A DNA stretch of 35,742 nucleotides from Chloroflexota bacterium (GTDB taxonomy: Bacteria > Chloroflexota > Limnocylindria > Limnocylindrales > CSP1-4). The stretch covers positions 1 to 35,742 of the forward strand of contig JANYJI010000054.1 of assembly GCA_025358525.1 (NCBI GenBank). Reading direction: 5' to 3'. The notes under the pieces are model-generated. The model did no database searches, was not told where the DNA came from, and worked only from the letters and a program-made list of their open reading frames with translations. Made by a program: the position numbers and the translations under genes. Each line of letters starts with the position of its first letter. Positions within the stretch are counted from its first letter, which is position 1. Of the stretch, positions 1,580 to 10,412 are shown in pieces.

Positions 1580-3682
1580 CTACGACGAAGTTGGAGTTGG
1601 AGTTGGGCTTGGAGTTGGGCTTGGAGTTGGAGGCACCGGAGGGGTCGGGGGGGCCGGAGGGGCCGGAGGCGTGCCGCCGATCTGCACCTGGCCGTTGACA
1701 ACGGTGTAGTGCGAGTACCAGGCGTCGTTGTGGATGACGGTTCCGGAGGAATCGGTGACAACCCGTGTCACGCCGGTGTCGAACCCGTTGGTTGCGTACT
1801 CAGCTATGTTCTGCTGACCAGGCTTCAGGGTGCTGACATATTCGGGCGGGTTGTTGTGGGCGGTGACAATGTTGGCCTTCCCGCCGCCGGTCCACGCCAC
1901 TGTCCGGTTGAGGGGCCAGGACCAGAGTTGGATCGTGATCGTGCTCTTGGAGCCAGGAGTAGTCCAGGCCCGGATCACGATCGGGTAAGGCGTGTCGTTG
2001 GTCCACTTCAGATCGTAGGTGCTCACGCCGTTCGAGTAGACGGTCGCATCCCTACCGATCGGGTAGCGGTAGATGTAGTACTCGTGGGCGTGGCGCTCGT
2101 CGATCCGGAGGCCGGCAGTGGCGGCCGCATTGAACATCGTGGTCGATGCGGAGCAGATGCCGCCGCCCATTGCGCCGGTGTGATTGCTCTTGCCGCCCAG
2201 GATCACGCCACCGAGCGTGAAGCCGTGGGCTGGATCGATGGGGCCGACCCCGCCCAGGAAGCTGAACTGCGCGCCGGGATTGACGACCTGCCCGTTTAGG
2301 TTAGTGGCAGGCTGGCGAATGTTCTTGCCAAAGCCGTTGCTGATGTCCGGGTAGAACGTGGTGGTGTGGCTGCCGACCACAACCATATTGGCAAGGCTGT
2401 CGACGCTGTTGATCTGCGGGTGGATCGGTGCTGTGACGATCTCTACGCTCGATGCAGCGCCACCGCCCGTCGCGAGCCTATTTAGGTAGGCCGAGACGGC
2501 AGAGGTCGTACCGGCGGGGTCGACACCGAGGCCGTCCTTGCCCGCGGTTAGGTCGACCGGCTTGCCAGACGGATCCCAAACGACCCAGGGCTCGACCGGG
2601 GGGACACCTGCATTTCCGGAGACGCCCGCCACATATGCCGCCATCTTTGCCTGATCGAGGGTCGGTTCGTATATGCCGTCCGCTTGAGTTCCGAAGATGA
2701 TCCAGTCGCGTATCTGATCGGCGCTGATCGTCCAGTCCTGGGGCTTCCAGCTCGCAGGCGCGGCCGCGGGCGGCGTGGTCCAGGTCAAGTCGACGTTGGC
2801 GATCATCTTCGAGGCCCGGGCAATCGCGTCTCGGGCGTTCTGGTCACTGACCTGGGGCTTCAGTGTCACGAACCCGCCGCTGATCTGCAGACTCGGTGCC
2901 GCGCCGGCCTGAGTAAGCTGGTCGATGATCGCCGCTCCCATCGCCCTCTCGTCTATGCCGCGGCCTGCTGCCCCCGGCGTGAAGCTGAAATTGCCGTCCC
3001 CGGCTGTCGCTACTGCGTCCTTCGGAGCGACCGAGGTCGTGCGGCCGAGCACGTGAATGCGCTGGGCCAGGGCAGTGGGGTCGACCTGGATTACGACCGG
3101 AATGGCCTGGCCAAAGGCCGCGGAATGAACCACGCTCGCACCGTCGGCAAGAGGATTGCCGGAGTGGCCGACGGCCATTGCTGCGTCCGCCATAGCTTCG
3201 ACGTCCGGCCCGCGGCCCGCCTGCTGGTAGGTGATAGCCGCCGTGCCAACCGGGGTCGTGACGGTTACCTGGCCGTTGCCCAGGTAGGCGTATCCCGATT
3301 GGAGCTTGGCTATGGCCTGGTCGCGCGTGAGCCCGGAAAGATCCACCGAACCAGCGTGAACTTGGGGCAGAACACGGTCGCGGTAGGTGTTGGAGAGGCT
3401 GAAGGCGGCGACGTACAGAAGGACGAAGGTCGCCACGCCGCCGGCCACCAACGCGACCGTGAAGCCAACCAACCAGCGATTGCGCGAAGCGTCCTGCGAC
3501 GCCCGCGCTCGCGGCAGGCCGCGCCCAAACCATCTGTGGGGCGACGGAAACACGAGTTCGCTGCCCACAGCCACCGCCTCCGAGGCAATCCACACAACCG
3601 TCAGGGGTGGCTCTGATGCCGCGTCAGGCGAGCCGTCGTTGTTGCTGTTGCCCTCGAGCGGCTCAAGCGACTCGGTTGTCAT
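1580..3682 (-). CDS. VanW family cell-wall protein with PG-binding-like domains
   Basis: A 700-residue envelope protein. Residues 1-68 are a cytoplasmic, poorly conserved segment, followed by one membrane helix at about 70-96. Then come repeated domains typical of the putative peptidoglycan-binding domain that precedes VanW (the first begins with AGSVDLSGLTRDQAIAKLQ). The VanW domain occupies roughly 435-575 and includes FYPDISNGFGKNI, PGAQFSFLGGVGP and GGGICSASTTMFNAA. The tail after about residue 675 is a Pro/Thr/Ser run with no sorting signal. VanW proteins are linked to cell-wall remodelling; the biochemical activity is not settled, and the vancomycin link of the name does not predict resistance. 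ATG at 3682 has AAGGG about 4 nt upstream. It starts 72 nt after smpB on the same strand. Confidence 0.9.
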   Translation of the reverse strand: MTTESLEPLEGNSNNDGSPDAASEPPLTVVWIASEAVAVGSELVFPSPHRWFGRGLPRARASQDASRNRWLVGFTVALVAGGVATFVLLYVAAFSLSNTYRDRVLPQVHAGSVDLSGLTRDQAIAKLQSGYAYLGNGQVTVTTPVGTAAITYQQAGRGPDVEAMADAAMAVGHSGNPLADGASVVHSAAFGQAIPVVIQVDPTALAQRIHVLGRTTSVAPKDAVATAGDGNFSFTPGAAGRGIDERAMGAAIIDQLTQAGAAPSLQISGGFVTLKPQVSDQNARDAIARASKMIANVDLTWTTPPAAAPASWKPQDWTISADQIRDWIIFGTQADGIYEPTLDQAKMAAYVAGVSGNAGVPPVEPWVVWDPSGKPVDLTAGKDGLGVDPAGTTSAVSAYLNRLATGGGAASSVEIVTAPIHPQINSVDSLANMVVVGSHTTTFYPDISNGFGKNIRQPATNLNGQVVNPGAQFSFLGGVGPIDPAHGFTLGGVILGGKSNHTGAMGGGICSASTTMFNAAATAGLRIDERHAHEYYIYRYPIGRDATVYSNGVSTYDLKWTNDTPYPIVIRAWTTPGSKSTITIQLWSWPLNRTVAWTGGGKANIVTAHNNPPEYVSTLKPGQQNIAEYATNGFDTGVTRVVTDSSGTVIHNDAWYSHYTVVNGQVQIGGTPPAPPAPPTPPVPPTPSPTPSPTPTPTSS
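1590..1640. repeat. 12-bp repeats encoding the Pro/Thr/Ser tail of the VanW protein
   Basis: Near-identical TTGGAGTTGGGC-type units (plus-strand sense) encode alternating P-T-P-S. The array is in frame inside the 3' end of the VanW gene and probably varies in length between strains. Confidence 0.7.
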
Positions 3683-8951: not shown

Positions 8952-10083
8952 CTACCCGCCCACCGAGCGGGGTCCATCCTCACCCACGTTGAGGCCCGTC
9001 GCCTCCCGCTCCAGCTCGGCCTGCATGAAAACGTCGAGGTCCCCGTCGAGCACGGCCGCGGTGTTGCCTGTCTCGACATCGGTGCGGTGGTCCTTGACCA
9101 TCTGGTAGGGGTGCAGGACGTAGCTGCGGATCTGGTTGCCCCAGCCCGCTTCCACATGCTCCCCGCGCAACTTGCGGAGCGTGGCTTCATGCTCTTCGAC
9201 CGCTCGCTGCAGTAGTCGGGCTCGCAGCAGCTTGGCAGCGGTCTCCTTGTTCTGCGTCTGCGATCGCTCGTTCTGGCTCTGCGAAACGACGCCGGTAGGC
9301 AGATGGGTGAGCCGCACCGCTGAGTCGGTCTTGTTGACGTTCTGGCCGCCCGCCCCGGTAGCGCGGAATGTGTCCACGCGGATCTCATCCCAGTTCAGCT
9401 CAACCTCGAGGTCGCTTTCAACCTCAGGCAGCACCTCCGCCAGGGCGAACGTCGTGTGGCGGCGCTTCTGCGAATCGAACGGGCTGATCCGGACCATACG
9501 GTGTACCCCGCGCTCCGCCTTGAGGTAGCCGTAGGCGTAGCGGCCATCGATTGCGACGGTGACGCTCTTGACGCCCGTCGCCTCGCCGTCAGTCTGGTCG
9601 AGGATCTCAGTGGCGAAACGGTGACGCTCGGCCCAGCGGAGGTACATTCGGAGGAGTATCTCGGCCCAGTCGGTGGCCTCGGTGCCGCCGGCTCCGGCGC
9701 TAATCGTCAAGAGGGCATTGCGCTGGTCGTACTCACCGCCGAAGAGGAGATGCTGCCGGGCCCGATCGTAGTCGGCGGCAAGCTCCCCCGCCTCTTTGGC
9801 GACCTCGGCCAGCAGGCCCCCATCCTCCTCCTCCTGGGCAAGATCGAGCAGCTCCTGAGTCGACTGGGAGCGCGATTCGAGGTCTCGCCAGAGGTGCAGT
9901 TCCTCGCGAAGACCCTCGGCTTCGCGAAGCGCCTTCTTGGCCGAGCGCTGGTCATCCCAGAAACCGGGTCCGCCAACGGCTCCGTCCAGTCCGGCTAGAC
10001 GGTCTTCCTTTGTCGCGAGGTCAAAGACGCCCCGATGTCGCCTGGATCCGACCTACCAGATCGCGGATCTCGGCCGGCTCCAC
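8952..10083 (-). CDS. prfB: peptide chain release factor 2, expressed by +1 frameshift
   Basis: Terminates translation at UGA and UAA. The reading frame is split: GTG 10083 opens a 20-codon frame that meets UGA at 10023-10021, and the rest (from GAC 10022 to TAG 8952) is in the +1 frame, giving 376 residues in all. The RF2 tripeptide SPF appears in RISPFDSQKRRH, and the catalytic GGQ in GAGGQNVNKTDSAVRL. The N-terminal coiled region contains FWDDQ, an RF2 landmark. Homology is continuous across the join, with GVFDLATKEDRLAGLDG typical of the RF2 start. The GTG overlaps the stop of the Cys-rich gene upstream (TAGTG), and the GNAT gene follows one base after the stop. Confidence 0.96.
10020..10033 (-). 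promoter_or_regulatory. programmed +1 frameshift site of prfB
   Basis: Minus-strand order: GGGG (10033-10030), a 3-nt spacer CGT, then CTT TGA C (10026-10020). This matches the conserved RF2 autoregulation signal, in which an internal SD placed 3 nt upstream pushes the ribosome from CUU to UUU when RF2 is scarce at UGA. Confidence 0.95.
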
Positions 10084-10367
10084 TAGGAGCGGCCTCGCGC
10101 GTCCTGGAGAAGGATCGGCCGGAGCTCAATCAAGCGCAACGCGCTCTTGCTCCGGGCGACTACGGGGTTCACGCAGGGGCAGTAGATGTTGTGGGGACAG
10201 ACACCGCAGTTACCATCGCAGTCGAGCGCAGCCGCATAACTACAGGACCGGCAATCACGCTCGCAGGCGATGAGATCGATGAAGGCCGCTTCCTCTGCCT
10301 GCTTCAACTCTCTCCTCAGTGTGACGGCACTCGCCCCCTCAATCGCACCGATTAGCGGGTTCGGCAC
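10083..10367 (-). CDS. small eight-cysteine protein coupled to prfB
   Basis: A 94-residue frame from GTG 10367. I do not recognise the family. Eight cysteines cluster at 35, 39, 42, 50, 54, 57, 63 and 65, that is, two CX3CX2C blocks separated by seven residues, then CPC; this suggests a metal site (zinc or Fe-S). The first 30 residues are an amphipathic acidic/basic helix; the last 25 are basic. Its TAG overlaps the prfB GTG, so it is read with RF2. A TTG at 10307 (residue 21) has GGAG 4 nt upstream and is a credible alternative start, giving 74 residues that keep all cysteines. A strong promoter lies just upstream. Confidence 0.75.
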   Translation of the reverse strand: MPNPLIGAIEGASAVTLRRELKQAEEAAFIDLIACERDCRSCSYAAALDCDGNCGVCPHNIYCPCVNPVVARSKSALRLIELRPILLQDARGRS

Positions 10368-10383
10368 GACGGGCGACAGCCCG

Positions 10384-10412
10384 AGTATACGGTTTCAATT
10401 CGGCGTAGCCAA
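10384..10412 (-). promoter_or_regulatory. promoter of the Cys-rich/prfB transcript
   Basis: -35 TTGGCT (10412-10407), a 17-bp spacer and -10 TATACT (10389-10384) on the minus strand. Predicted start near 10377, only about 10 nt before GTG 10367 or 70 nt before TTG 10307. Confidence 0.7.

Follow-up and report, generated by a model that had tools for sequence, protein, structure and literature searches.

The circuit by which release factor 2 (RF2) regulates its own synthesis through frameshifting is textbook knowledge and is regarded as requiring nothing beyond RF2 and its mRNA. In the frameshift-autoregulated prfB of most bacteria, a zero frame of about 20 codons leads to CTTTGAC, with a G-rich element upstream, and the same arrangement is found in the window analyzed here, a whole stretch of 35,742 nucleotides from a Chloroflexota bacterium. 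Unlike that of the usual prfB, however, the zero frame in these organisms starts within or immediately behind a conserved gene for a small protein with eight cysteines. This strictly conserved, unclassified protein is encoded directly before the RF2 circuit in almost an entire class of uncultured bacteria, and a search of one literature library returned nothing on a small cysteine protein at prfB or on a metal-linked RF2. If the protein acts on termination, it would be, to our knowledge, the first metal- or redox-linked factor in bacterial release; otherwise it still represents a clear new protein family.

The prfB circuit and the limits of the upstream gene

The features of the locus, among which the gene, its invariant cysteines, its linkage to and overlap with prfB, the frameshift site and, within CSP1-4, the promoter are borne out by sequence comparison with relatives, are as follows.

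8952–10083, minus strand: prfB (RF2), from RF2 homology and frame analysis
10020–10026, minus strand: CTTTGAC, the +1 frameshift site of prfB, with UGA at 10023–10021 and GGGG just upstream, a Shine-Dalgarno (SD)-like element
10083–10307, minus strand: gene of the eight-cysteine protein, 74 codons plus TAG, from its reading frame, with the start set by comparing relatives
10173–10265, minus strand: codons of the cysteine array (residues 15–45), all eight cysteines being invariant in 71 aligned members
10311–10316, minus strand: AGGAGA, putative ribosome-binding site of the cysteine gene, from the sequence
10384–10412, minus strand: TTGGCT-17-TATACT, putative promoter of the cysteine gene and prfB, the sole promoter-like match in the scanned region

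The GTG start of prfB (10083–10081, minus strand) and the TAG stop of the cysteine gene (10085–10083, minus strand) share one G, an overlap that the first-pass annotation had described correctly. The zero frame of prfB comprises 20 codons, reads MEPAEIRDLVGRIQATSGRL and ends at CTT-TGA-C (10026–10020), after which the RF2 body continues in the +1 frame. As the site is the standard one for +1 frameshifting at UGA, which had been named as the determinant of RF2 level, prfB at this locus is predicted to keep the normal RF2 frameshift. A fusion of the cysteine protein to RF2 by readthrough was also considered and rejected; the two frames agree where the distance from the stop to CTTTGA is 59 nt, and because they differ at spacings of 52 or 60 nt, such a fusion is not conserved.

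The cysteine gene had been placed at 10083–10412. A gene is indeed present there, but its true limits are 10307–10083, the longer span consisting of the promoter-like site, the leader and the gene. The 110-codon span has an in-frame stop already at codon six, and the longest open frame begins at GTG 10367, while conservation across relatives begins later, at TTG 10307 (10307–10305, minus strand). The conserved start pattern in relatives is AGGAGA, then TTG or GTG, then AAG-CAG, giving MKQ; nearly all relatives open with MK- behind a ribosome site, and most relatives in CSP1-4 have AGGAG or GAGGG near the same position. The translated protein of 74 residues is MKQAEEAAFIDLIACERDCRSCSYAAALDCDGNCGVCPHNIYCPCVNPVVARSKSALRLIELRPILLQDARGRS.

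The strong promoter postulated ahead of both genes corresponds to a promoter-like site that is conserved in CSP1-4. Counted in its strict form (TTGGNN-17-TAYACT, within 250 nt of the start), it is kept 69–155 nt upstream of the cysteine gene in 60 of 73 CSP1-4 loci, whereas mononucleotide shuffling predicts 0.005, a figure that is descriptive because the pattern was defined after the sites were seen. Conservation of this putative promoter with a variable spacer is plain, and the evidence comes from CSP1-4 only, as a look at a few loci from other families did not reveal the site. No known RNA element was detected in the leader with Rfam, whose sole match in the window is a tmRNA at 1094–1483 on the minus strand (127 bits), which ARAGORN does not report. 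Between the tmRNA and prfB are frames that resemble ftsE/ftsX and an S41 protease, these protein names having been given by eye.

The cysteine array and its candidate metal site

A scan of 84,980 species recovered 132 relatives of the cysteine protein, and the 80 retained of these come from records named Chloroflexi or Chloroflexota, Limnocylindrales and, in one case, Thermomicrobiales. The gene is present, as a single copy per genome, in 144 of 177 genomes of a class that we take to be Limnocylindria, with CSP1-4 and Limnocylindraceae as the likely identities of its families f1 and f2. In a phylum sample of 400 genomes, all 48 matches fell inside Limnocylindria, the sampled Chloroflexota outside the class being without the gene, and plasmid and phage records gave no match. 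CSP1-4 and Limnocylindraceae are sister families, the latter genome-reduced (PMC13212565). Three absences outside Limnocylindraceae were checked and are assembly gaps: prfB sits at the edge of a contig in G034 and G031, and it gave no match in G159.

The array has the spacing C-X3-C-X2-C-X7-C-X3-C-X2-C-X5-C-X-C. Each of 114 distinct proteins contains exactly eight cysteines, and none of the 912 cysteine codons lies outside the array. There are 15 invariant columns in the 71 aligned members, namely the eight cysteines and I13, E16, Y24, L28, G32, Y42 and V46. Within the genus, the median dN is 0.037 and the median dS 0.62, with dN/dS of about 0.06. Long chance frames are common in a GC-rich window such as this one, but a chance reading frame is refuted by this dN/dS together with the class-wide conservation and the conserved start and ribosome site, which leave it virtually no probability. 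Such conservation, far beyond chance, indicates that the gene encodes a real protein.

The first-pass annotation had proposed a metal or Fe-S site from two C-X3-C-X2-C blocks and a C-P-C within fewer than 35 residues. These elements were found within 31 residues (C15–C45), and relatives lacking the cysteines, which would have spoken against the site, did not appear; all eight are invariant instead. Because of this invariance and the preserved linkage to prfB, the proposal is well supported by the array, and the protein very likely binds a metal or an iron-sulfur cluster. Moreover, since no signal peptide or membrane segment is evident by eye, the natural reading, on general knowledge of such proteins, would be a reduced, cytosolic, metal-holding array.

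Profile searches found no relative in Pfam, NCBIfam or the PDB, and in PHROGs there were only weak matches of a few members to unnamed families (best E 0.0016). Several known proteins nevertheless bear some likeness to this one and were rejected. The FeoB-associated cysteine-rich protein (PF12669) is also small and rich in cysteine and was the sole Pfam name for the long version of the protein, scoring 10.3 bits where the cut-off is 27 (E 0.87), and with the corrected start there is no match. Radical SAM enzymes share the C-X3-C-X2-C spacing of each half of the array, but neither Pfam nor NCBIfam gives such a match for the 71 members at E values up to 1, and 74 residues are too few for the barrel domain. 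Two-cluster bacterial ferredoxins and zinc-ribbon proteins likewise hold two cysteine sets in a very small protein; the spacing here is neither the CX2CX2CX3C of a 2[4Fe-4S] ferredoxin nor the paired CX2C knuckles of a zinc ribbon, and neither profile matches. Structure prediction, which had been suggested as a further check, was run with AlphaFold2 and yielded no usable model; as the mean pLDDT was 47 with the 71 sequences and 45 with the single sequence, no statement is made on the fold.

Linkage to prfB and stop-codon use

The proposed coupling to RF2 turned on where homologues lie relative to prfB, and rather than being scattered they are class-wide and prfB-adjacent: in 131 of 133 distinct loci, the cysteine gene is directly upstream of a frameshifted prfB on the same strand. 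Of the two exceptions, L111 lies at the end of a contig and L109 has lost the frameshift site through a local deletion. In the latter (JACVXW010000007.1, about 3235–3500), the end of the cysteine gene runs directly into the RF2 body, with neither the prfB start nor the frameshift site in between, and the deletion may be either real or an assembly error. When prfB starts were assigned by a rule that takes the candidate closest to a zero frame of about 20 codons, 101 of the 131 loci had a gap of −14, −1 or 0 nt between the two genes. In 40 prfB stretches from other Chloroflexota, no cysteine gene precedes prfB, and CTTTGA is at the expected place in 39, the 40th starting inside the gene.

Genes further upstream are variable. 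In CSP1-4 secA and then a ydcF-like gene are found, in family f4 secA alone, and in family f3 secA is separated from the cysteine gene by 1.2–3.3 kb. Because these neighbors change, the cysteine gene is linked to prfB and not to the region. This bears on the idea that the protein is a metalloprotein unrelated to termination, such as a metal buffer, an electron carrier or an assembly factor, which is kept through the shared prfB promoter and start. A housekeeping operon can retain a neighbor for long, the gene is single-copy, and when RF2 was compared between genomes with and without the gene, no RF2 residue was found to track its presence; these points speak for the idea, but it has to accommodate a linkage almost without exception across four families while genes further upstream change, and we regard it as rather doubtful. 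The same comparison mildly disfavors an intimate RF2-binding role. Separately, 21 of 24 CSP1-4 members have an RF2 without cysteine, and most other Chloroflexota RF2 have one.

The reading that we somewhat favor as a whole is that of a new, small, cytosolic metalloprotein, confined to the class, whose synthesis is translationally coupled to that of RF2. The eight cysteines, as two C-X3-C-X2-C blocks and a C-X-C, would hold two metal centers, either iron-sulfur clusters or zinc. The cysteine gene would be the first of a two-gene unit with RF2, and a dedicated promoter would make the cys-prfB message. Ribosomes translating the cysteine gene would halt at a stop that touches or overlaps the prfB start, re-initiate there, and some 20 codons later arrive at the autoregulatory UGA frameshift. 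The protein might then respond to metal or redox conditions and, for instance, adjust RF2 supply or bind to the terminating ribosome. We infer metal binding, actual coupling and action in or near termination, the last because RF2 is the only constant partner.

The use of stop codons was compared against flanking genes. In CSP1-4, UGA ends the cysteine gene at 27 of 100 loci, secA at 63 of 90 and prfB at 77 of 98; in f4 it ends 0 of 16 cysteine genes and 15 of 15 secA genes, and f3 shows no clear difference. Avoidance of UGA would free prfB re-initiation from dependence on RF2, while shared ancestry and the overlap itself may be other causes of the low UGA use.

Limnocylindraceae, a family without the gene

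Limnocylindraceae, with genomes of roughly 1.1 Mb, lack the cysteine gene and keep prfB with an intact CTTTGAC. The intact site rules out a joint loss of the cysteine gene and the frameshift, which open frame length had suggested. Since the family keeps RF2 and the frameshift without the cysteine core, RF2 as such can do without the protein. For the same reason, and because no RF2 residue follows the gene, nothing directly supports the suggestion of the first-pass annotation that the protein links termination to the metal or redox state. We assign a low probability to a sensor of that state which would act on RF2 production or the terminating ribosome and so make UGA termination respond to metal or redox conditions across the class, in addition to the frameshift feedback. 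The natural absence of the gene in this family also allows comparison.

All 16 Limnocylindraceae loci that were read (L192–L198 and L241–L249) have no cysteine core and instead a short frame before prfB, whose stop overlaps or adjoins the prfB start in every case. The core is dispensable in this family while an overlapping or adjoining frame stays. Such persistence is what would be expected if the upstream frame were chiefly a leader gene, the translation of which feeds ribosomes to a weak prfB start, the cysteine protein having a separate job or being a passenger. Touching or overlapping frames are also the rule where the cysteine gene is present, and its own stop is seldom UGA. A mere leader, however, would not need eight invariant cysteines or a dN/dS of 0.06, the similarity of the short frame to the tail of the cysteine protein is weak, and some Limnocylindraceae lineages have lost the GTG start of the short frame, so that this explanation is considered unlikely beside that of a metalloprotein co-produced with RF2.

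In one Limnocylindraceae clade, the short frame has 18 codons and the same GTG-AAG-CAG start as the cysteine gene, for example MKQQNPVVAFVRPSERPR. It reads MKQQNPVVA... and resembles the cysteine protein, MKQ ... NPVVAR, minus the core. For the best case, 6 of 300 shuffles gave a likeness as good, and for the others 30–170 of 300; that the short frame may be a cysteine gene with its core deleted is thus weakly suggested and can serve as a lead. One Limnocylindraceae bin contains a second RF2-like match, about 45% identical (L200, G045:C166:3844-4617), which may represent either contig contamination or an additional release factor. In one clade of the family, TACGAT is present about 7 nt before the GTG of the short frame, as if the message were leaderless.
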